Source: Desulfobacterium sp. (GTDB lineage: Bacteria > Desulfobacterota > Desulfobacteria > Desulfobacterales > Desulfobacteraceae). From it: 64,000 nt of DNA. The notes beneath the pieces are model-generated. The model was given only the letters and a program-made list of their open reading frames with translations, did not search any database and was not told the origin of the DNA. Below, in pieces: positions 42,716 through 58,730 of this stretch (positions within the stretch are counted from its first letter, which is position 1; each line of letters starts with the position of its first letter). The stretch lies in the NCBI GenBank assembly GCA_030145245.1, contig JAQYWC010000017.1, positions 62,001 to 126,000 on the forward strand, read 5' to 3'. Both the position numbers and the translations under genes were made by a program.

Positions 42716-42736
42716 AGCCTGCCCATCGTGCAGGCT
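42716..42736. terminator. Hairpin between dus and the SPFH gene
   Basis: AGCCTGC pairs perfectly with GCAGGCT around a seven-base loop. It could end dus transcription or lie in the 5' leader of the SPFH operon; no T-tract follows. Confidence 0.4.
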
Positions 42737-42793: not shown

Positions 42794-43774
42794 ATGACCG
42801 AAAAAGCGTCACAGGTTTTCCTGCAAAGAGCCCAGGTAAATAACTTTATCCGAAGGGTCGGGTTTACCCTTTTTGCCATCGTCATCGTGTACACCCTCGC
42901 GGCCCTGGTCTATTCGACCCACATCATCTACAAGGTCAAGCTCAACTATGCCATGGTGATCGAACAGCTGGGGGGCACCCGGGAGGCGGTGACGGATGTG
43001 GGGTGGCATGCCAGGCTCCCCTTTTTTACACGGCTTGAGCAGGAGGTGCCCCTGATGAACCAGCGGCTGTTGCTCGGGGATACCCAGGAGCCCATGCGGA
43101 TCATCTCCAGGGAGAACGTCGCCCTCTGGACCTCTGCCATACTCACTTACCGGATCCATGACCTGAGGATCTGGGCCATTGAGAATCTTGCGCCCAAAGA
43201 TCTTCTCCAGGGGGATTTTGACGGCATCGTAAAGGATATCCTCCAGGCCCAGAAGGTGAACAGCCTCATCAGCGACCGGGAGGGGATCAAGGAGAAGATC
43301 TTCAAGGCCCTGAAGTCCCGGCCCATCAATGAGGCCGGTCCCACCCTGGAGGAGAAGTACGGGATCACCGTGGTCAGCTTTGTGCTCCGGGAGACCCGGT
43401 TCGGGGACGCCCTGGTTGCGGCCACAGAGGAGAAGAAGCGAAGGGAACTCATTGCGGAGGCTGAAAACTATGCCGCAGACCAGGAGGCCGACCGGATACG
43501 AAAGCTTTACAAGGCCTATCTCGAGAGCATCTCCTCCCTGCAGAACGCCCTTGGGACAGGGGAGAACGGTATCGAGCCCGACCTGCTCAATTTTCTCACC
43601 CAGCAGAAGTGGGCCACGGCATATGCCAACCAGACCGGGCAGAAGACCTTTGTGCTCCATGGTTCCAGGGCCTCCCCCTCCTTGACACTGCCTTCCCTGT
43701 CCGATCCCCGGGTGGTCCAGGGGAATCATGGAGCCAACACTGTGACAGGCTATTCGGATTATAAAAATCCTTAA
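42794..43774 (+). CDS. SPFH/Band 7 membrane protein (HflC-like)
   Basis: A 326-residue protein with one N-terminal transmembrane helix (about 22-45), an SPFH domain (about 47-205), and a charged coiled-coil helix (ATEEKKRRELIAEAENYAADQEADRIRKLYKAYLES, about 209-245). The tail is Pro/Ser-rich. HflK/HflC-type SPFH proteins form membrane rings around the FtsH protease. Here the partner 17 bases downstream is a giant AAA+/Lon-like protease, suggesting an analogous membrane-bound cage and protease. AAGGAG before the ATG supports the start. Confidence 0.88.
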   Translation: MTEKASQVFLQRAQVNNFIRRVGFTLFAIVIVYTLAALVYSTHIIYKVKLNYAMVIEQLGGTREAVTDVGWHARLPFFTRLEQEVPLMNQRLLLGDTQEPMRIISRENVALWTSAILTYRIHDLRIWAIENLAPKDLLQGDFDGIVKDILQAQKVNSLISDREGIKEKIFKALKSRPINEAGPTLEEKYGITVVSFVLRETRFGDALVAATEEKKRRELIAEAENYAADQEADRIRKLYKAYLESISSLQNALGTGENGIEPDLLNFLTQQKWATAYANQTGQKTFVLHGSRASPSLTLPSLSDPRVVQGNHGANTVTGYSDYKNP

Positions 43775-43791
43775 CTCCGGGAGAGATGGAT

Positions 43792-46700
43792 ATGCCCAAG
43801 CGATTCACAAGAGAGAAGACCCACATTCGTCTTCCTGAAGCCCAGATTAAGCGAATCGAGCGCCTTGTCGATTCCTGGTCCTATAATACAAAAGCTTTTA
43901 TCCGCTCCCGCCTCAACCAGTACACCCCCATTGCCCCCTTGTTTTCCTTCTTGAAATCCGCAGCAACCCTGATCTTTCTGTTCCGGGTCAGGGAGAAGCA
44001 GATGAACGTGCTCAACGATCCCGAGATCCTTACGGACTGGAAAAAGCGGTTTGAGTATTCCGGGGAAACCAATCCCGGCCGATCGTGGAACAGAATTCTG
44101 GAGGAGGAGCTGACCCGGCAGGAGAAGCAGTACCTGCTTGCCGTGCTTGACAGGGAACTCACCGATATCCATGTGCCGGTGGAGCTGGAGGAGATCATCT
44201 CCAAGATCTACAGGGCCCATATCCGAAAGGAGTATCTCACGGGCCAGGATGTGCCCAAGGCCCCCATCCTCCTGGTGGAGGGCGCAAGCGGCAGCGGCAA
44301 GAGCGCAACGGTCCAGGAGACCATTGAAAAAGTGATCTTCAGGGACGAGGTGATCCCCACCATTGACTGGCGGAGAAAGCGCAACGAGATCATGGCCGGG
44401 GAGGGGATCTTCACGAGCCTTGAAGAGGTGAACCCCGATTTTGCCATGGAGATCGCCCTGGGGCACCGCCGGACCTTTTACAACGCTCTGGCAAGAATCC
44501 CCATCATCAACCGGATCTTCAAGCAGCGGATCATGGAGAACCTGACCCATTTTGAGGAGCGGGGCATCTCGGTGGATTACTCCACCATCACCCCCAACGA
44601 CTACCAGACCGCCTATGCCGGGGAGCCGGGCAACTATTTCCGAAAGGCCATGGGATTTTTAAAGGTTACCTCCATCCGCCACATCGAAGAGGCCCACTCC
44701 GCCTTTGGAAAGGCCGATGCCAGGGAGTCCGGGGTGGAGGGGCAGCAGCGCTCCCTCATCGACACCTCAAACATCGTCCTGGACGAGATCATCAACGGCA
44801 AGAGGGACTGCTTTCTGGTGGCCACCACGGACCAGGCCGACCGGTTTGATTCGGCCATCTACCGCCGGTTCATCGAAAAGGGAAAGATCATCGATATGGC
44901 CGAGTTCTGGACCAATCCCGATAACTTAAAGCAGATCATCGTGTTGGAACTCAAGCGCCACAACCTCTCCATGGACGACCATTCCGACACCCTGAACGCA
45001 TCTGTGAAAAGGATCTACACGGTTTTCAGGGAGCGCAGCCTCAAGGTGACCCCGGCCTATGTGCGAAAACTTGTGGAGTCGGTGTACCGGATCAAGGGGG
45101 ATTTTATTCCGGAATATCTGGACGACGCCCCGCTGATCCGGAACGCGTTCCAGCTGGTTGCCAAGAATGTCTACGGAGAGCTCTACAAAAAGGTGGTGGA
45201 CAAGATAGACCGGAACACCCCCTGGGAGGAGTATGTGGGCAACATAAAGGACCGGTTTTCCGAGATGGTTAACAACTGCTTCAGCTATGGGGTTAGCGAG
45301 GATAAGGGGGTGGTGCTGACCGGTCCCCCCGGCAGCGGCAAGACCTTTCTGGTGCGAACCTGGCTCAGCGAGAGTCCCCGGGTCCACGACATTGCCACAA
45401 GCCCGTCCGCCCTCCAGGATCCGGCAAACCCGGTTCACGGGGCCGTGGCCAACCTGGAGCGGGTCTATGACATCGCCAAGATGATTGCTCCTGCCGTTGT
45501 GCTCTTTGACGAGGGAGACTCCCTTGCCCCCAGGAGAAGCGCTTCCGGGGGATTGCCCTCGGACGCCCTGACCAACAAGTTCCTCAACATCATCGACGGT
45601 GAGATCCCGTTGAACAAGGTGTTCACCGTGCTGACCACCAACCGCCTGGATATCCTTGATCCCGCCCTGATCCGGTCCAAGCGGCTTAAGGTGCTGGAGG
45701 TCACAGGCCATCTCCGGCAGAAGGATATCGCCGATATCATCATCAAACAGTTTGACACCATCTGCCACGGACGCCAGGTACCGGCCGAGCGGATCATCGA
45801 GACCGCCCAGGGCATCTGCAACACCCCGGCCGATTTTACCGCGTTTACGGAAAAGGCCATTGCCCTGTGCTCCACCGAGTACAAGGTCCTGGTGCGGCTC
45901 AGGGAGCTTGAGCATGCGCCCCAGGAGGATAAGGTGGGGTTCATCAAGTTTAACTTCAAGACCTTGCTTGGCATCCTGGATGCCATGAACGCCCCTCCCC
46001 TTCTCAAGGCGGACATCAAGGGCGATCCCGTGAACTTTGTGAGGCGCTACTCGGCCATCCTCGACCTTGTGAAAAAGGTGGAGAAGGAGGAGGAGTACCC
46101 CTTGAAGGAGTCCCACCTTGAATCGGCAAGACGGGAGATCTCCCAGAGTCCGGTGCGAAAGGGGGCTGTCCAGCTCAACGAGTTCCTGGAGGCCGAGCTC
46201 AGCCAGGAACCCCAGATCGGATTCATCATCGGGGTGGGGGCCAACGATGTGACAGGAATGCTGCTCCCCATCGCCACCAGCCTCACCGCCCGGCTGGACC
46301 AGTCCCAGGTGCTGGTCACAGGGGCTGTCTCCTCCACGGCGGACACGGCGGCCCAGATGGACATGGCGGTTCAGATGACCCGGCAGAGTGCCAGGGAAGC
46401 CTTTACCATGGTCAAGAACTATCTCCAGGAACTCACCCCGAAGATCAGCATTGCCGGGCTGTTTGAGGATTTTCTTGGCAGATACGCCATCCACCACCAG
46501 CTTCTCAGCGCCTCCTATAACGTGGGCGGGCCTTCCGCAGGCTATGCCCTTGCCCTCAATACCCTGTCCGCCCTTCTGAGGATCCCCTTGTGCAACGATT
46601 TCGGAATCACCGGTGCTCCATGGACCAAGGGGGTCAGAAAGGACGAGGTGGGGGGATCGGTGATCATCGGCGGCCATCGGAAAAAGACCGAAAAGGTGCT

Positions 46701-47094
46701 GCTCCATTTGAGGCGGATGTACATGCCGCTCCAGAACTATAAGGATCTTGAACCTGAGTTCCTCATGGGCTACTGGGAGCGGGGCAAGGATATCATGGGG
46801 GTGACCCATTTTGCCGATCTCATATCCGAGGTGGTCTCCCTGGATGACCTTTACGCCAAAGAGCTCCAGAAGCTTATCGATATGAGGATCAGGCGAAAGC
46901 TGGAAGATTACCACGGGGCAAAACGGTGCCCCCTCCTCAAGGACGACATTGTCCAGGGAAAAAGAGAGCTGAGAAAGCGGGTGGAGTCGGTGATTCTTGA
47001 CAGGATCGATGCCATACGCACCTATCTTCTGACTCCGGACAGGGACCGGTACATCTCCCACGCTCAGATCTTCAAGCGTTACGGAAGCCTGTAA
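43792..47094 (+). CDS. Double-AAA+ Lon-like protease
   Basis: A 1100-residue ATPase-protease. A basic N-terminus and a hydrophobic stretch (about 43-66) may attach it to the membrane. AAA+ module 1 has Walker A GASGSGKS (164-171). AAA+ module 2 has Walker A GPPGSGKT (511-518), Walker B VVLFDEGD (569-576) and a TTNR sensor near 615. The C-terminal 260 residues are a Lon-type peptidase with nucleophile Ser915 in GGPSAG and the likely Lys965 in GGHRKK. Classical Lon has one AAA+ module. In module 1 the Walker B equivalent is RHIEEAHS, so it may be weakly active. The ATG at 43792 fits the ribosome site GGGAGAG better than the one at 43786. Confidence 0.87.
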   Translation: MPKRFTREKTHIRLPEAQIKRIERLVDSWSYNTKAFIRSRLNQYTPIAPLFSFLKSAATLIFLFRVREKQMNVLNDPEILTDWKKRFEYSGETNPGRSWNRILEEELTRQEKQYLLAVLDRELTDIHVPVELEEIISKIYRAHIRKEYLTGQDVPKAPILLVEGASGSGKSATVQETIEKVIFRDEVIPTIDWRRKRNEIMAGEGIFTSLEEVNPDFAMEIALGHRRTFYNALARIPIINRIFKQRIMENLTHFEERGISVDYSTITPNDYQTAYAGEPGNYFRKAMGFLKVTSIRHIEEAHSAFGKADARESGVEGQQRSLIDTSNIVLDEIINGKRDCFLVATTDQADRFDSAIYRRFIEKGKIIDMAEFWTNPDNLKQIIVLELKRHNLSMDDHSDTLNASVKRIYTVFRERSLKVTPAYVRKLVESVYRIKGDFIPEYLDDAPLIRNAFQLVAKNVYGELYKKVVDKIDRNTPWEEYVGNIKDRFSEMVNNCFSYGVSEDKGVVLTGPPGSGKTFLVRTWLSESPRVHDIATSPSALQDPANPVHGAVANLERVYDIAKMIAPAVVLFDEGDSLAPRRSASGGLPSDALTNKFLNIIDGEIPLNKVFTVLTTNRLDILDPALIRSKRLKVLEVTGHLRQKDIADIIIKQFDTICHGRQVPAERIIETAQGICNTPADFTAFTEKAIALCSTEYKVLVRLRELEHAPQEDKVGFIKFNFKTLLGILDAMNAPPLLKADIKGDPVNFVRRYSAILDLVKKVEKEEEYPLKESHLESARREISQSPVRKGAVQLNEFLEAELSQEPQIGFIIGVGANDVTGMLLPIATSLTARLDQSQVLVTGAVSSTADTAAQMDMAVQMTRQSAREAFTMVKNYLQELTPKISIAGLFEDFLGRYAIHHQLLSASYNVGGPSAGYALALNTLSALLRIPLCNDFGITGAPWTKGVRKDEVGGSVIIGGHRKKTEKVLLHLRRMYMPLQNYKDLEPEFLMGYWERGKDIMGVTHFADLISEVVSLDDLYAKELQKLIDMRIRRKLEDYHGAKRCPLLKDDIVQGKRELRKRVESVILDRIDAIRTYLLTPDRDRYISHAQIFKRYGSL

Positions 47095-49714: not shown

Positions 49715-49951
49715 ATGGGTTCAAAAAAAACGAAGGATTCCAGGATTGATGCCTGGGAGAGGACAAAGCGGTTCTGGTACAACTTTTATCTTTTCGCCGG
49801 CGTTGGTATCAACTTTATCATCTATTTTACAAAGCCCTGGGGATTTGACCCGGGAACGAATGTCGCCCTTGGCGCCAGCCTGGGCCTGGGGATTCCCCTT
49901 GCTGCGATGTTTGTGGGAACCTACCTCCACCAGAAGGTGCTGGGTATATGA
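49715..49951 (+). CDS. Small membrane protein of unknown function
   Basis: A 78-residue protein with a charged N-terminus (MGSKKTKDSRIDAWERTKRF) and two predicted transmembrane helices (about 22-39 and 50-72). I do not recognise a family. Its stop overlaps the start of the next gene by ATGA, so the two are translationally coupled and probably work together at the membrane. AGGAG lies upstream of the ATG. Confidence 0.65.
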   Translation: MGSKKTKDSRIDAWERTKRFWYNFYLFAGVGINFIIYFTKPWGFDPGTNVALGASLGLGIPLAAMFVGTYLHQKVLGI

Positions 49952-50865
49952 GGGGGCGGGCAGGCTGGCTCGGATTCTTTATCGGGGTGCTCCTGGTCCT
50001 TGTCGCTGCTTCCCCCGGCTTTGGGGGGGTGCTTCATCTGTTTGACTACACCATAGACGAATTCGTGGTGGGAGAGAAGCAGGCTGAGCTTGCCGTGTGC
50101 TACGCCAACGGCAACAAGTACTCTGACAAGAGAACCACCTACACGGGCAGTTTCCTGAAGAAATGGTTCGGCGGCGAAAAAACGACCCGGGAGACCGCCA
50201 ATGTCCTGTTGGATCAGGATCTTATCCGGGAGATCGATTACCTCAAACACCGGGTGGTTGATTATCCCCTGGCCAGGATCGTCGATCCCGACTGGTATGA
50301 CAGGCATTCGCCCCTGGAGATTCCTTCCTCCGCCCAGACCATGATCGACACCAGGTACGAGGTGAAAACGCCCCAATTCTCGTTGACGATTTCACCTGAA
50401 TCCGTGGTGGTGGACAACCGGCCGTGCACCCACGTGATCGCAACCCTTCGCCTGGAAACCCTGGACAAGATCAAGAACGCCTCCAGCGTTACCCTGATTC
50501 GCCAGGCCATGTGGCTGACGGATCAGGTAAAGGGCATTGACGAGTTCAGGGCCTTTAACCGGGCCATGGAGGCGCGTCTCGGCATCGACGCGGCCAGGGT
50601 GGGCATCTTCGGCAATATCCTGGGATACTGGCAGGGGGGGCTTGATTCCATCGGGGCGTCGCTGAGCAGTGTCTCGGGCTATCCTGTAAAAAAGGAGGTG
50701 TCGGTTACGGCGGTTTACACGGCCGGGTTGGGCACCGATGAGGTCAAAAGGACCGAAGCCTCCATCTCAAAGATAGCCGTGAATCTGAGGAAGGTTATCG
50801 AAAATCCCCCTGGGATGGAGCGGTTCTATCCGCCCAAGGCGTTCAGGATGGTCATTGCCCGGTAA
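49948..50865 (+). CDS. Secreted protein of unknown function
   Basis: A 305-residue protein with a signal peptide (about 1-27, ending ASPGFGG) and a mature part predicted mixed alpha/beta. No catalytic motif or known domain is apparent. A stretch SSVTLIRQAMWLTDQVKGID near 187-206 is echoed by a paralog fragment at 52178. Coupling with the small membrane protein upstream suggests a periplasmic-membrane pair. Function unknown. Confidence 0.7.
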   Translation: MRGRAGWLGFFIGVLLVLVAASPGFGGVLHLFDYTIDEFVVGEKQAELAVCYANGNKYSDKRTTYTGSFLKKWFGGEKTTRETANVLLDQDLIREIDYLKHRVVDYPLARIVDPDWYDRHSPLEIPSSAQTMIDTRYEVKTPQFSLTISPESVVVDNRPCTHVIATLRLETLDKIKNASSVTLIRQAMWLTDQVKGIDEFRAFNRAMEARLGIDAARVGIFGNILGYWQGGLDSIGASLSSVSGYPVKKEVSVTAVYTAGLGTDEVKRTEASISKIAVNLRKVIENPPGMERFYPPKAFRMVIAR

Positions 50866-51393
50866 CACTACCAGGAGAATTCCTCTATTGGTTTCATCCC
50901 TCATCAATCGTGTGAAAGTAAAAAAACCGAATCTAACTTTGATGGACCTGGATTTCATCCCGCTGTTCCCAGAGTGTTTGGCTCTTTTCTATCCAGATTG
51001 TACGGTACAGTAAAAAATGTAATACTTACCAGTAAAAAAATGTAATAAAAAATAATTTACAAATAGTGTAACGCCTTGTTATCGTGGGGCGTTCCCCCTC
51101 TTTGAGGGGGGTGAATGCTTAGGTCTATATTTTGCATAATTAAAAATTAAATACATTTTAAAATCTCGGATGTTCCTTACAGCTCTAATAGTGTTTTCAT
51201 GAGACGCCTACTCCATCGCAATTCCTAAAATTAAACTGTTTTTGGTCATACGTCCGTCATTATTTTATTTGATGTGCTTATGATGTTTTTTAACAATCCA
51301 TGCGAAAGCCAAACCTATCGTAAGGCCAGGCCGGAAAGCCAGCGGGTTCTATATAAAAGATATTCGATGGGCATGGAAAAAAAGGAGGTTTGT
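50866..51393. other. AT-rich intergenic region with a short direct repeat
   Basis: No gene is visible in these 528 bases. Around 51008-51048 the motif CAGTAAAAAATGTAATA occurs twice with small changes. A small hairpin CCCCTC-TTT-GAGGGG is at about 51099-51114. The right end is the promoter region of the PEP-CTERM gene. Confidence 0.4.
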
Positions 51394-51963
51394 ATGAAAA
51401 GGTTTTTAGGAATTATGGTTGGCTTTTTTTTATTGTTTTGCAATACGGGTATTGGGAATGCGGCGCCTTTTGAGATCGGTTCAAATGGGACGCTGGAACT
51501 CAATGGACTTGCATTAGCCGCGGCAGATTATGATGCCAATTCATTCCCGCAATTTGACCTTGCCGAGGGGGCAAGCACAGATTGGTTAAATTTATTTACT
51601 ATCAACTCTTTAACAGGTCTTTCCATTGGTGGTAGTTTAAACGCGGAGATAGAATTTATACAACCTGGATTGAACTATGGAGACATCGCAACGGCAAGCT
51701 TCATTGCAGGATTTGGCATTGTCGTAGGTAATGTACAGTGGGGCGGAGAGACCATTGTGAATTATGGCTTAGGTGGTCAGTTTGCCATAGACATGAAGGA
51801 TATCGATGGATCATTCTTCGGCAATGCTATACTTCCCACTCCATTTTACCTTCAGGGTAAAATTAGAAATATTTCAGACCCTGTCCCGGAACCTGCAACA
51901 ATGGTGCTCTTAAGCTTTGGTCTTTTCGGTCTCGCAGACATTGTTAGGAGAAAAACGAAATAG
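51394..51963 (+). CDS. PEP-CTERM sorting-domain protein
   Basis: A 189-residue exported protein with a signal peptide (about 1-23), a beta-rich Gly/Asn body and a C-terminal sorting tag: VPEPATMVLLSFGLFGLADI followed by a basic end VRRKTK. PEP-CTERM tags are processed by exosortase and direct proteins to the cell surface or extracellular matrix. AGGAGG before the ATG at 51394 gives the start; the frame is open 40 codons further upstream. The gene is more AT-rich than its surroundings. No exosortase is in the window. Confidence 0.88.
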   Translation: MKRFLGIMVGFFLLFCNTGIGNAAPFEIGSNGTLELNGLALAAADYDANSFPQFDLAEGASTDWLNLFTINSLTGLSIGGSLNAEIEFIQPGLNYGDIATASFIAGFGIVVGNVQWGGETIVNYGLGGQFAIDMKDIDGSFFGNAILPTPFYLQGKIRNISDPVPEPATMVLLSFGLFGLADIVRRKTK

Positions 51964-53064: not shown

Positions 53065-55149
53065 TTAAAGTTTTATCTTCCACATACAAAGGTAGTTGAT
53101 TCCAGGCTCCATCAATTCCATGCCCCGGGAGGTGGAGAGATGGTTGGTGATCTCCTGGTCAAAGAAGTTGTCTATGCCGACCGTCAGCTCCTGGCGTTTT
53201 CCCCAGAGGATGAACCTGTGGCCCATGCGGAAATTGAGCCGGTCCCAGCCATCGCTTTCCAGAGCGCCCTGGGGGGTTCTGTCCTGGTCTGCGGCCCACT
53301 CAAGTTCCAGGCTGGTCCAGAAGCCCGTGGTGGTGTCGTAACGGATGCCAAACAGGCCGTTCAGGGGGGAGATAAAGGGCAGGGGCTCGTCAATTTTGGT
53401 GTTGTCGCCGTGGGTGTAGGCAACATAGGCCAGGGCGGACAGCCGGGGGGTGATAAAATACTCAGCTTCGATCTCTCCTCCATAGATCCGGGCCTCGTCC
53501 ACATTCATCATCCGGTGCTCGGTGCTGCTTACAATGGTTTCCGTGATGAGGTCGTCCAGGCAGTTGAGATAGGCGCTGGCGGAAAACTTCAGGGCAGCGT
53601 CGGTGTAGTGGAAGCCGTATTCAAAAAACAGGGAGCGCTCGGGATCAAGATCTGGATTGCCGAACAGCTCGATGCCGCCGCCAAGGTTGATGTATTTGAA
53701 CCGGTCCATGAGGTCTGGGGCCCTGTAACTGGAGGCCGTGATAAAGGTCATGGTCCAGTCGGGCATGAAACCCCAGGTGACGCCGGCATGGGCATTCCAG
53801 CTGGTGTCGCTGTAGTCTTCTCCCGCCTGCTTGAGGGTAACGGGAATACTGGGAGAGGGCGGGGAGATCCAGTTGTAGAGATCGTCGCTTTCCGCCTGGA
53901 TGGTGTCCAACCGCCCGCCCAGGTTGAGGCTGACGGCGTTGGAAAGGCGCCATTCATCTTCGGCAAACACGCCGCCTGAAAATTGCTCCACATTGCCAAG
54001 GGAGGCGTCCACCCCCACACGGCCGTTTGCGAACTCCTTGTAGCGGTGGGAGTTTGAGATCTCCCAGTTCCAGAGGTCCACGCCTGCAACGATCCTGTGG
54101 TCCTGGGGCTGGAAGATGGTCTGCCACTTCAGCCCCCAGGTTTCATGGTCGGCCTGGGGCCGGATCTCGGTGACAGGGCCGCCGGGAAAATTGTCCAGGC
54201 GCACCCGGCGCTCGATCTTCTGGTAAAAAAGGTTGATTTTGGATTCCGGGATCAGAGGGCTGTCCGGGGTCAGGGTATGGGTGAGGTTCACCAGGGTGCG
54301 GGAGGTTTCGGGATAGGTCACATCCGGTCCGGTGGGAAGGGACAGGCCTTTGCCGGGGATGCCGATCTCGTCCCCCTCAAAGTGCTGGACCTGTACCTGG
54401 GTGGTGTTGATGGGGTTTATCTTTGCCCCCAGGGCGGTGTTGAAACTGTAATCCCTGTACTGGCTGTTATGGATATCCTTGTCGCCTCCGGCCTCATAGC
54501 TGTTGTGATCCCGGTAACCGGCGGATGCGGATATCCAGAAATCCTGGCTGTTGTAGGTGGCCCGGCCATGGGTGTCGATACCCTTGGGGTTGGAGGCAAA
54601 CCCGGTGGTGAGCTCTCCCTCCCAGATGGGGCTTGGGGTGAACCTGCCTTTTTGGGTGATCACGTTGACCACGCCGCCCATGGAGCCCGAACCATGGAGT
54701 GCGGAGATGGGTCCCTTGAGCACCTCGATCTGCCGGATGTCCAGGGGATTTACCGTGCCGAACTGGGCGTTGATGTCGGTGGCCGTGTTCACCCGGCATC
54801 CGTCAACCAGGAACACCACGCTGTTCCTGCCCAGGCCCCGGATGTTGATGGCCGATCCCCACAGGGAATCGGAGGATTTGTTCACACCGGGGATGCGGGT
54901 GGCCGCGTTGGTGATGCTGACGGGATTCATGGCGGAAATTTCCCCTTCGTCCACAATCCCTACGCCGCCGGGGGTCTGGGAGATAAGGCTCTCCCTGCCC
55001 CGGGCTGTCACCACCATGGGGTCGAGCTTGTTCAGGCCATTGTCGCCTGTCTGGTTCTCTGTTTCCGTTGAATTTGCTGTTACTGCTGTTAATAATGCCA
55101 ACACAATGATCCCTGTCATGCAGGGCCAGGAATGTTTAAAATGATGCAT
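53065..55149 (-). CDS. TonB-dependent outer-membrane receptor
   Basis: A 694-residue outer-membrane transporter with a signal peptide (about 1-26), a TonB-box-like NKLDPMVVTARGRE near 39-52, a plug domain (about 55-160: PGGVGIVDEGEI, INIRGLGRNSVVFLVDG and IEVLKGPISALHGSGSMGGVVNVI), and a 22-strand barrel. The C-terminus ends in an amphipathic strand (YLCMWKIKL). It resembles cobalamin, heme or siderophore receptors; the ligand is unknown. No ABC transporter or TonB/ExbBD genes are adjacent. It is 63 bases downstream of the ycaO-like gene, an unusual association. Confidence 0.9.
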   Translation of the reverse strand: MHHFKHSWPCMTGIIVLALLTAVTANSTETENQTGDNGLNKLDPMVVTARGRESLISQTPGGVGIVDEGEISAMNPVSITNAATRIPGVNKSSDSLWGSAINIRGLGRNSVVFLVDGCRVNTATDINAQFGTVNPLDIRQIEVLKGPISALHGSGSMGGVVNVITQKGRFTPSPIWEGELTTGFASNPKGIDTHGRATYNSQDFWISASAGYRDHNSYEAGGDKDIHNSQYRDYSFNTALGAKINPINTTQVQVQHFEGDEIGIPGKGLSLPTGPDVTYPETSRTLVNLTHTLTPDSPLIPESKINLFYQKIERRVRLDNFPGGPVTEIRPQADHETWGLKWQTIFQPQDHRIVAGVDLWNWEISNSHRYKEFANGRVGVDASLGNVEQFSGGVFAEDEWRLSNAVSLNLGGRLDTIQAESDDLYNWISPPSPSIPVTLKQAGEDYSDTSWNAHAGVTWGFMPDWTMTFITASSYRAPDLMDRFKYINLGGGIELFGNPDLDPERSLFFEYGFHYTDAALKFSASAYLNCLDDLITETIVSSTEHRMMNVDEARIYGGEIEAEYFITPRLSALAYVAYTHGDNTKIDEPLPFISPLNGLFGIRYDTTTGFWTSLELEWAADQDRTPQGALESDGWDRLNFRMGHRFILWGKRQELTVGIDNFFDQEITNHLSTSRGMELMEPGINYLCMWKIKL

Positions 55150-55212
55150 CGCTCCTCGCTTCAGGGTGTCAATCTCCGGATTGTTCCAGGTTCGGCATCC
55201 TTGTGTCAATGG

Positions 55213-56919
55213 TTAATCGTTTTGGCTGAACTGGTTGATGTAGTTTCTGAACAGTTCAGGGTGAACCCTGGAAAACCGGTCAAAGTCTCCAAGGATATCC
55301 ATGCCCGGGATAATGGCCTTGACAACTGGGAGGCCGATATCCTTGCGGGTCAGATCTACGTAATAGGGCTGCTGGCCGTTGGCCGTGAGCAGGCGTTCCA
55401 GCAGGGCCAGGTCTGCGCCGTGATCAGGGGTCGAATAATCCGGCAGGTTGCTGTAACCCACCGGGACCAGACCCTCCATGGCAGGTGCCGACGGTGGGCC
55501 CGAGGGAAAGGGGTAGGTGGTCTCGGTCATGGCTGAGACCAGGGCCCGCCTTGCATCGAGATGGGCGGCCGCTCCCTTGTGGATGGTGCCGTCCTGTCCC
55601 CTGACAAAGCATTTGCAGCAGGGAATGCCGGACCCAGGTGTGATGTCCTGGAACTGGACCTGGATCCCGAGTTCGGCATAGGTTTGGAGCAGGGGGGTGA
55701 TCTTGCTGTTGTCCGGCACGAGTTGGAAGCAACTCCGGGTATCAAAGGGAACCGTTGCCTCCTGGTGGCGCTCGATCACCTCCAGCAGGGCCGACACCTT
55801 TGCCTGGGCCATGGTGTTGCCCGATGCAAGTCCGGTTGAGCCAAGACCTGAAAACAAGGCGGTCTCATCCAGGTTGCAGAAGAGAAACAGGGGCTGGACA
55901 GGCACCATGGCCGGTTCCGGGCCGTTGGTGCCGGGGGTGGTGCCTTCGATCCAGTGCAGGGGCTCGTTGCCATAGCTCACCTCAAGGGCGAGTTCGGCCG
56001 GGTTGAGGGCGTTTCTGCCCTGTTGGATCAGCTCCGTGTAGGTGGCGCGCACCAGGGGATAGTCATTTACATATCCTTCCACCCGGGTGGCTGAGATGGA
56101 AGCAAATGAGGAGCAGCGCTCCACGATCTCCATTAAAAGGGACGCCCGGGCGTTTTCCAGGGAAAGCCCCTTACCGTAGCTGGTCTGGGGCCCGGACAGG
56201 GTAAACCTGTTCCGGTGGTTGTCCGTGTGTGTGGTGAACCGCCACCGCCGTAGCAGGGCAAAGGGGCTGAGGCTTGATTCATGCCGCATCTCCTCCTCCA
56301 CTTCGATTCCTGCCTGCATAAGCCGCTCCATGGCGGTCCGGGCTGTTTGTTCTGGGCTGAAATCGCCCTTGGTGTCCGGGATATTGTCATCCCGGGAGAC
56401 GAGGTCGTCGATCTTGGTCAGGGTCTCCTGGCGAACCATGCATTCCCCGGCGCAGATGGGGGGAAGCCCTGTCTCGTCCACTGGTTTCAGGGGCTTGTTC
56501 TCCACAATGTTTGACCGGAAAAGGTCGATCCACTGGGTGTGGAGCCGGGTGTTCGGCAACAGGGCCGACCGGATGTCCACCAGGGGCGTATGGTTACAAA
56601 GTTCGGTGATGGTCTCTTTGGAAAAGAACTGTTCGGCCTTGGTCATGCTGTGGGACAACAGGATCTGCTCACAGGCCAGGGCCTGGAGCACCCGGTCCTC
56701 CGAAGCGTTCGCCTGTTGGATGAGCCGGCCGACCTCATCTTCATCAAGCCGGGCCATCATATCCAGAACATACCGGTGGAGGAACTGGTCCATGGGCCGT
56801 TTTTTCAACAGCGCCAGGCCCTGCTCCAGGGACAGGGGGGGAGAGGGGACCGTGGTGAAAAATCCCGTGGCAAGTTGTGTGTCGGATAATTCCAATTTAT
56901 ATTCCAGTGTCTCTGTCAA
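55213..56919 (-). CDS. YcaO-domain protein with N-terminal extension
   Basis: A 568-residue protein. Residues from about 225 match the YcaO ATP-dependent cyclodehydratase fold: SYGKGLSLENARASLLMEIVERCSSF and, in the second half, GLASGNTMAQAKVSALLEVIERHQEA, both with the EXXER-type ATP/Mg residues, then DARRALVSAMTETTYPF. The first 200 residues are helical and of unknown function, with Cys residues in PPICAGECM. YcaO enzymes activate peptide backbone amides in RiPPs, on ribosomal proteins, or in cofactor proteins. No TfuA, dehydrogenase or clear precursor peptide is seen. The TTG at 56919 is chosen because AGGAG lies seven bases upstream. Confidence 0.83.
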   Translation of the reverse strand: MTETLEYKLELSDTQLATGFFTTVPSPPLSLEQGLALLKKRPMDQFLHRYVLDMMARLDEDEVGRLIQQANASEDRVLQALACEQILLSHSMTKAEQFFSKETITELCNHTPLVDIRSALLPNTRLHTQWIDLFRSNIVENKPLKPVDETGLPPICAGECMVRQETLTKIDDLVSRDDNIPDTKGDFSPEQTARTAMERLMQAGIEVEEEMRHESSLSPFALLRRWRFTTHTDNHRNRFTLSGPQTSYGKGLSLENARASLLMEIVERCSSFASISATRVEGYVNDYPLVRATYTELIQQGRNALNPAELALEVSYGNEPLHWIEGTTPGTNGPEPAMVPVQPLFLFCNLDETALFSGLGSTGLASGNTMAQAKVSALLEVIERHQEATVPFDTRSCFQLVPDNSKITPLLQTYAELGIQVQFQDITPGSGIPCCKCFVRGQDGTIHKGAAAHLDARRALVSAMTETTYPFPSGPPSAPAMEGLVPVGYSNLPDYSTPDHGADLALLERLLTANGQQPYYVDLTRKDIGLPVVKAIIPGMDILGDFDRFSRVHPELFRNYINQFSQND

Positions 56920-57216
56920 ACCCAATCTCCTAATTGTTTGTTATGATCCCAAGACCCATGTGGACTTCAATGAAGGCGGCATACTACCATGTGGCAGGCC
57001 ACAAGTGAATAGTATTCTCTTCTGTCATGGCATCTGAGGTTGCCGACGGTCCTATTCCCCCTTGCTGGTTCAGTATTGCGAATTGTGTGCCACCTGAAAA
57101 CAAGCCCGGAACGTCAGGGCCGTATGTACTTCATGGTGAACAGGATCGTCTTTCCAAGGTTTAAGCTGTCAGCATCAATTACACTTTGTAAACGTTTTTG
57201 TTGAAGGGGGCTGGGG
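56920..57216. other. Leader region upstream of the ycaO operon
   Basis: The 297 bases between the MFS stop and the YcaO start probably contain the promoter of the YcaO-TonB-hydrolase operon. No convincing precursor-peptide ORF or known riboswitch was recognised. A minus-strand 14-codon ORF beginning at about 57028 (MTEENTIHLWPATW) exists but lacks support. Confidence 0.4.
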
Positions 57217-58677
57217 CTAATTTATGCGGGGACGGTCATCCCCCCGGAGAAAGGCGAGAACGGTTCCCAGGGCGGCCAGTACGCCGCCGGCTTTCATGGC
57301 GTTGTGAAACCCTGCCATGAAAAACGGCTCCACGGCCAGGGAGTAAGTCTTAAAGGGGGTGCCCTGGCTGAGGTCGGTAAAGGTGGTGCTGAAGATCAAT
57401 CCGGCAATGGCCACCCCGATGACCATGCCCAGATTCCGGGCCGTTGCCACCGTTGCCGAGGCAATGCCCCGCCGGTTGGCCGGGATCGCCCCCATGGCTG
57501 CCGTGCTGTTGGGGGAGATGAAGATGGCCGTGCCCGTGCCGGCCAAGGCCAGGCGCCAGAGACTCGATACCAGGGAGCAGGAGGGGTCAATCCGGGTGAA
57601 GGAGAAGAGGGCGCAGGCAAGAAGCCCCATCCCCAGGGTGCAGGGGATCCTGGAGCCTGTTTTATTGTAAAGGGCGCCCGACACCGGGCTGATGAAGAAG
57701 AGCATGAGAAATGGGGTGATCATCACAAGCCCTGTGGCCGAGGCCGACAGACCGCAGGGGTGGACAAGGAAAAAGGGCATCATGAAGACGATGATGAAGA
57801 GGGCGGCAAACATGACGGCCGAGGTGATCACCGGCAGTACAAACAGCCGAATCCCCAGGAGGCCTGGATCAAACAAGGGGTAGAGGGCCTTGGCCTCGTT
57901 CCGGATGAATCCCAGGCATGCCAGGGCACAGGCCAGGGTGAATCCCATGGTCTTGGCGGAGAAGAGGTGCCACTGGTTCAAATGGGTCAGCACCACCAAT
58001 AGGCATATCAGGGAAATGGCAAGCAGGATGCTGCCGGTCTTGTCCAGGGGTTCAAGGTTTCCCTGGTCTGCCCGGGTGCCCTTGAGGATGCGGGTGCCTG
58101 CCAGGGCCGAGGCAATGCCGATGGGGATGTTGATGTAGAAGATGAATCGCCAGGAAAAGAGATCCAGGAGTATGCCGCCGAGCACCGGGCCTGCGGTAAG
58201 GCCCGCCGCCACCACCGCCCCCACCATGCCCAGGGCCTTGCCCCGCTCTTTGGCAGGAAAGGTGTCCACGATGAGGGCCGGGGAGCAGGCCATGAGCATG
58301 GACGCGCCGCATCCCTGTATGGCCCGGGAGAGCACAAGGAACATGGGCGTCTCGGCCATGGCGCAGCAGAGGGAGCCCAGGGAAAATACGAGGAAACCGG
58401 TGGTGTAAATGGTCCGCTTTCCCCGGGTGTCGCTCAGCCTGCCAAAGGTGAGGAGCAGGGAGGAGATGGTGAGCAGATAGATGAGGACCACCCACTGGAT
58501 GGTTACAAGCCGTGTCTCCATGTCCTGCATGATATAGGGCAGGGCGATGTTGACGATGCTCGAATCCAGGGTCGACATGAAGACCCCCAGGGCCACACAA
58601 ACAAATATCAGCCACTTTTTCTTCTGCTCTTCTGCCATCTCTTGTCCGCTCCCGTCTCTTTCCGTTTCGGCATTCAT
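57217..58677 (-). CDS. MFS drug/metabolite exporter (DHA2, EmrB-like)
   Basis: A 486-residue transporter of the 14-helix DHA2 family. Conserved motifs are LDSSIVNIALPYIMQDM in helix 1, GRLSDTRGKRTIYTTGF (motif A) and motif C in helix 5 (GAVVAAGLTAGPVLGGILLDLFSWRF). It probably exports drugs or a secondary metabolite by proton antiport. It follows uvrA by 53 bases on the same strand and precedes the ycaO gene by about 300. The start is uncertain: ATG 58677 or 58638. Confidence 0.88.
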   Translation of the reverse strand: MNAETERDGSGQEMAEEQKKKWLIFVCVALGVFMSTLDSSIVNIALPYIMQDMETRLVTIQWVVLIYLLTISSLLLTFGRLSDTRGKRTIYTTGFLVFSLGSLCCAMAETPMFLVLSRAIQGCGASMLMACSPALIVDTFPAKERGKALGMVGAVVAAGLTAGPVLGGILLDLFSWRFIFYINIPIGIASALAGTRILKGTRADQGNLEPLDKTGSILLAISLICLLVVLTHLNQWHLFSAKTMGFTLACALACLGFIRNEAKALYPLFDPGLLGIRLFVLPVITSAVMFAALFIIVFMMPFFLVHPCGLSASATGLVMITPFLMLFFISPVSGALYNKTGSRIPCTLGMGLLACALFSFTRIDPSCSLVSSLWRLALAGTGTAIFISPNSTAAMGAIPANRRGIASATVATARNLGMVIGVAIAGLIFSTTFTDLSQGTPFKTYSLAVEPFFMAGFHNAMKAGGVLAALGTVLAFLRGDDRPRIN

Positions 58678-58730
58678 CTGTTTTCTCAAACAAGAAAAAG
58701 TTTAGGATATCGGCATTAAGTTGGCAAGGG

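Follow-up and report, generated by a model that had tools for sequence, protein, structure and literature searches.

Work on pairs of an SPFH membrane protein and a protease has, to our knowledge, centred on FtsH-type enzymes, and it is an open question why proteases should be accompanied by SPFH rings. FtsH is a transmembrane-anchored zinc protease with one AAA+ module. Prohibitins form an SPFH assembly associated with another AAA+ membrane protease, m-AAA, and both m-AAA and plant FTSH4 are FtsH-type metalloproteases, unlike the Lon-type enzyme described below. PH1510, the partner of a stomatin, contains neither an AAA+ nor a Lon domain. In Escherichia coli, the SPFH proteins HflK and HflC are paired with the ATP-dependent AAA+ protease FtsH (PDB 7wi3, 9cz2), and in plants, according to the abstract of PMC13365137, the SPFH assembly of the SLP1-FTSH4 megacomplex is associated with an AAA+ membrane protease. 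An SPFH gene also adjoins its partner gene in the stomatin-NfeD operons (PH1511-PH1510; QmcA-YbbJ), where the partner PH1510 is itself a protease, described in passages of PMC13086221 as a long homologue of NfeD that has a ClpP-type domain. Here, we describe a different combination, found in a stretch of 64,000 nucleotides from Desulfobacterium sp. (GenBank assembly GCA_030145245.1, contig JAQYWC010000017.1, positions 62,001 to 126,000), which is called the window in the following: a gene for an SPFH protein followed by a gene for a protease in which a tandem AAA+ motor and a Lon peptidase are joined in one chain. It resembles HflK/HflC-FtsH and SLP1-FTSH4 in combining SPFH with an AAA+ protease, and differs from the former in having one SPFH protein of another clade and a Lon-type protease with two AAA+ modules. 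In the open full-text literature, no description of such an SPFH and Cdc48-Lon pair was found among the matches listed by title and start of abstract, subscription papers and other preprints being outside this scope, in agreement with the impression of an earlier note on this DNA; nor is the pair described in passages of PMC2636767, PMC13086221, PMC12839542 and PMC7159879.

The two genes follow each other in the same orientation (Table 1). The reading frame of the protease is open also from an upstream ATG at 43786 (43786-47094, + strand; 1102 amino acids in the list of open reading frames), and its conserved start is the ATG at 43792, Met3 of the longer reading, which all 16 rows of alignment A1 share. 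This start gives a gap of 17 bases, a protease of 1100 residues and the numbering Ser915/Lys965 for its catalytic dyad. Thus the two-gene unit that the earlier note had reported, with this gap and this protein length, is borne out as a whole; of the interpretation placed on it, the real two-gene unit, the dyad and the ATPase-type motifs stand, while the HflC-like identity of the SPFH protein and a conserved hydrophobic N-terminal anchor of the protease do not. The leader of the SPFH gene contains a perfect 7-base inverted repeat (AGCCTGC...GCAGGCT, 42716-42736), spotted by eye; it may be an operator or may have arisen by chance.

Table 1. Positions of the SPFH-protease gene pair and of the protease domains in the window
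Feature	Position	Strand	Remarks
SPFH/Band_7 gene	42794..43774	+	326 aa; Pfam, predicted structure, alignment
Tandem AAA+/Lon-type protease gene	43792..47094	+	1100 aa from conserved ATG
Strand-helix-helix region, ~46 residues, ribbon-helix-helix-like (tentative)	43792..43929	+	Model, hhalign
AAA+ module 1 (residues ~110-470), divergent	44119..45201	+	PF00004 21.8 bits (cut-off 21.2)
AAA+ module 2 and following helical region (~471-768)	45202..46095	+	Closest to Cdc48/p97 AAA domains
Lon (S16) peptidase domain with Ser915/Lys965	46099..46851	+	Lon_C, dyad alignment

The pairing was followed in three genome sets, which overlap, so that their counts are not additive: 58 related genomes searched for homologues of both proteins; a sample of 395 genomes of the phylum searched for the protease at E 1e-30, with two candidates scored per genome; and a pattern-based scan of 84,980 species genomes, which yielded 364 stretches at tblastn E 1e-3 or better, possibly including plain AAA proteins, and of which the best 80 were used for locus counts. 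By tblastn, 74 of these 80 loci have an SPFH gene immediately upstream of the protease and on its strand, and the remaining six (L067, L099, L108, L110, L121 and L123) start at a contig end or no more than ~100 bases from one. Among the relatives, a full or long partial protease is present in 28 genomes; 26 of the 28 loci, that is, all 26 that are uncut, have the SPFH gene directly upstream, and in the remaining two, L022 and L029, the contig ends where the locus starts. A strong SPFH homologue (E < 1e-120) is confined to the same 26 of the 58 genomes and never occurs without the protease. In the phylum sample, 12 genomes, that of the window included, encode the protease, with identities to the window protein down to 50%, and the SPFH gene adjoins it in 12 of 12. 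Homologues of both proteins with at least 50% identity keep this gene order in other members of the phylum, so the two frames are not open by chance. In these loci, the SPFH gene is found wherever upstream DNA is readable, contrary to the possibility, considered in the earlier note, that homologues of the protease usually occur without an SPFH partner.

The spacing between the two genes ranges from -29 to +202 bases, always with an ATG, and is at most 50 nt in 69 of 74 loci, 23 of them overlapping. A third conserved neighbour, and with it a wider conserved gene cluster, was not found when the open reading frames of the 80 loci were clustered: the protease cluster covers 79 loci, the SPFH cluster 67 and the next 17, the open reading frame caller being crude (it caught SPFH in 67 loci against 74 by tblastn) and the flanks being at most 8 kb long and often shorter. 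Over 45 genomes, the distance matrix of one protein correlates with that of the other (r 0.84; as high in 0 of 2000 permutations), which can also be explained by shared ancestry alone. Two single cases may be added. The single-contig genome G027 contains only C-terminal fragments of the protease (L030) and no SPFH match, an apparent joint loss of the pair, and the metagenome-assembled genome JAAEKY has two protease copies on different contigs, each with SPFH upstream (L059 and L069), as a result of either duplication or a mixed bin.

The C-terminal part of the protease belongs to the S16 peptidases, as Lon_C scores above its cut-off of 21.1 bits with both the whole protein (24.5 bits) and the peptidase piece (30.1 bits) and the Ser/Lys dyad is present. 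In alignment A4, which consists of the window protein and 46 of the 80 loci chosen by us (47 rows; L059 was dropped), Ser915 and Lys965 are each kept in 47 of 47 rows, so that the dyad is where it had been placed and has not been lost in these members. The GPSAG and GGxxKK motifs are shared with LonA and LonB, and the best profile matches of the peptidase in the PDB are 1xhk and 1z0b ("putative protease La homolog"), which we take to be of archaeal origin. The protease differs from Lon in its two AAA+ modules, in its N-terminus and in its scores with the equivalog models lon (TIGR00763, 41.6 bits against a cut-off of 608.05), lon_rel (TIGR00764, 29.4 against 516.6), spore_lonB (TIGR02902, 37.4 against 723.3) and spore_lon_C (TIGR02903, 25.9 against 678.8). 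With the CDC48 model TIGR01243 it reaches 71.6 bits, the cut-off being 802.65. Among the Pfam and NCBIfam matches listed, no curated whole-protein family covers the protease at its cut-off, and the NCBIfam matches listed for both proteins are all far below their cut-offs. The genome of the window has eight Lon_C matches (L131-L138), namely four strong ones (>250 bits), a partial LonB-like protein (L135), RadA/Sms (L137), one unassigned match (L136) and the protease of the window.

Pfam finds AAA (PF00004) in two stretches of the whole protease, the best at residues 509-636 of the longer numbering. When the modules were scanned separately, module 2 reached 67.8 bits, and module 1 passed the cut-off narrowly (Table 1), matching from profile position 29 on; the two modules of the earlier note are therefore both recognizable, the first only weakly. 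Module 2 is clearly Cdc48/p97-like: through it, Cdc48/p97 chains rank first in PDB sequence searches. Module 1 is divergent yet retains ATPase-type motifs. Both Walker A lysines are kept in all 47 rows of A4, and so are the acidic pairs that we take to be Walker B (EE in module 1, DE in module 2). Among the residues that we assign, by position, to sensors and arginine fingers, RR (47/47) and D347 (46/47) are kept in module 1, and N617, R628 and R631 (each 47/47) in module 2. A stretch TA(L/Y)AGEP of module 1, presumably the pore loop, resembles SKLAGES of p97 D1. The predicted fold points in the same direction, as Foldseek with the AlphaFold2 model of the whole protease places p97/Cdc48 chains first, with low TM-scores and with 531-740 aligned columns among the matches listed, a length that implies both modules in the fold match. 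The protease differs from Cdc48/p97 in its fused Lon peptidase and in that no Cdc48 N-domain occurs among the 25 Pfam matches listed. In the 395 genomes of the phylum sample, module 1 was not detected in other proteins at E 1e-4, with five candidates scored per genome. Ahead of the modules, the window protein does have the hydrophobic stretch noticed before (KD19 1.65, following residues 1-46), but it is not conserved; a value of at least 1.6 is reached in only 2 of 47 members, which rules out a conserved transmembrane anchor in the protease.

The SPFH protein consists of a basic N-tail of ~22 residues, one predicted transmembrane segment (~23-42), the SPFH domain, a coiled coil and a C-tail of low model confidence. 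It is a member of the SPFH/Band_7 superfamily (Pfam Band_7, E 3.4e-15, 57 bits against a cut-off of 23.6), and its profile-nearest PDB sequences are QmcA (E 0.0094) and stomatin, while the best PDB matches of its AlphaFold2 model are stomatin, HflK/C and prohibitin chains. It had been called HflC-like, a label that has to be given up: it scores 18.1 bits with the HflC model TIGR01932 (cut-off 134.4) and 16.3 bits with the HflK model TIGR01933 (cut-off 159.4), and in a tree that also includes E. coli HflK, HflC, QmcA and YqiK and the other six Band_7 proteins of the window's genome, and that carries a long-branch warning, eight members of the family cluster together (support 99/97) apart from HflC and HflK. 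On these sequence comparisons we assign it to a subfamily of its own, distinct from HflC. HflK (TIGR01933), HflC (TIGR01932) and FtsH (TIGR01241) are encoded separately in the genome of the window, each above its curated cut-off. A second adjacent pair of SPFH genes (L126 and L127; 368 and 340 amino acids), both without an NCBIfam match at 1e-10, is present on contig C79 of this genome.

Taken most simply, the pair suggests a membrane-linked degradation machine, and on balance we think it somewhat probable that an SPFH oligomer anchors or organises the Cdc48-Lon protease at the membrane. A possible outline of the process is as follows: the two genes would act as one functional unit; the SPFH protein would insert into the inner membrane via its single N-terminal helix and oligomerise as a ring or dome, like other SPFH proteins. 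The protease would form a hexameric Cdc48-like double-ring unfoldase with its own Lon-type proteolytic chamber; the SPFH assembly would recruit or confine it, and there it would extract, unfold and degrade membrane or membrane-associated proteins. The pair would then act alongside HflK/HflC-FtsH rather than in its place. If so, some sulfate-reducing bacteria and their relatives carry, as a fixed two-gene unit, a protein-disposal machine unlike the known one. A cage assembled from different parts, as the earlier note suggested, is possible. A pair that retains the principle with another SPFH subfamily, another motor and another peptidase would tell which features of the arrangement are indispensable.

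Several observations weigh against this proposal. What ties the SPFH protein to the protease is genetic linkage, and their physical contact is inferred. With the profile of module 1, P-loops of UvrA come first (E 0.0018), Cdc48 following only with E 0.031, and module 2 has LxDPxNP where p97 D2 has MWFGES, and so lacks the aromatic residues of D2 at what is presumably the pore loop. Thirty of the 58 related genomes contain no full or long partial copy of the protease, so the pair is dispensable in the group. The confidence of the AlphaFold2 models is modest, with a predicted local distance difference test score of 61.6 for the SPFH protein and 68.2 for the protease, much of whose Lon domain is below 50. 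Finally, the lysine and arginine residues flanking the transmembrane segment do not decide the topology of the SPFH protein, the N-tail being richer in them in 21, equal in 16 and poorer in 9 of 46 rows, or 20, 12 and 9 in the 41 rows with a complete N-tail, after removal of five that lack the first residues. If the SPFH domain were periplasmic, only a short N-tail (mean conservation 38% over residues 1-8 and 61% over 9-22) would face a cytosolic protease that has no conserved transmembrane segment.

A more far-reaching version of the anchoring proposal, which we regard as doubtful, is a bacterial machine resembling endoplasmic-reticulum-associated degradation, in which an SPFH dome would enclose or dock a single-chain "Cdc48 plus proteolytic chamber"; the tandem AAA+ motor would pull proteins from the membrane, and the Lon chamber would degrade them. 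If true, the SPFH-protease cage would have been put together a second time and independently.

Is the SPFH protein the substrate, rather than the scaffold, of its partner? The protease might trim or degrade it, either its C-terminal tail or the whole ring, and thereby control a membrane scaffold. Strict pairing would suit an enzyme with a dedicated target, and the C-tail is less conserved as well as of low model confidence. A double-ring unfoldase, however, exceeds the need of a single cleavage, and PH1510, which cleaves the stomatin PH1511 in Pyrococcus, is not ATP-driven. The precedent of a stomatin-protease operon is found in passages of PMC13086221, but the enzyme there is the NfeD-type one with a ClpP-type protease domain. 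We consider this explanation unlikely.

It is rather improbable, too, that the protease is regulatory or DNA-directed, with an N-terminus that binds DNA or DNA-binding proteins and an SPFH protein that tethers enzyme and target, in regulated proteolysis or defence. This explanation starts from residues 1-46, which are predicted as strand-helix-helix in the AlphaFold2 model and which matched the alignment of the ribbon-helix-helix family RHH_1 in hhalign with a moderate probability (50.8 over 35 columns, against 0.6 in a control comparison), so that the N-terminus may tentatively be called ribbon-helix-helix-like. Direct hidden Markov model scans, including those of sets of 5 and 23 N-termini, gave no match to RHH_1 (PF01402); the scan of 23 returned Ilar_coat in two, HicB_lk_antitox in one and ASF1 in one, all at E 0.1-0.15, and the region has no PDB match. 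A parallel is offered by BrxL of BREX, in which AAA+ is fused to a Lon-type domain; passages of PMC12839542 describe DNA-binding N-terminal domains, an MCM-type AAA+ and the lack of a Ser/Lys dyad. The protease here has an intact dyad and a Cdc48-like module 2, and hence is not a member of BrxL. In addition, the PADLOC matches (mad8 1.9e-9, TRIP13, IetA and MkoA) are partial and lie on AAA regions, and no homologue was found in viral contigs or plasmids, the one phage match being limited to residues 500-655; a viral, plasmid or defence origin is thus unsupported by these searches.

Mere cotranscription, in which two membrane-stress genes would stay adjacent only so as to be expressed jointly, would agree with a pairing known from linkage and with a charge bias that leaves the SPFH topology undecided, but it is very unlikely, as all 74 loci whose upstream DNA is readable retain the pair while their other neighbours vary, and among the 58 relatives the strong SPFH homologue is absent wherever the protease is absent.

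Elsewhere in the window, a protein with a PEP-CTERM signal is encoded at 51274-51963, and upstream of it lies an open reading frame of 305 amino acids without a Pfam match (49948-50865). On the - strand at 53068-58689, a TonB-dependent receptor, a YcaO-domain protein and an MFS transporter stand in a row, possibly forming a cluster for peptide modification and uptake or export.

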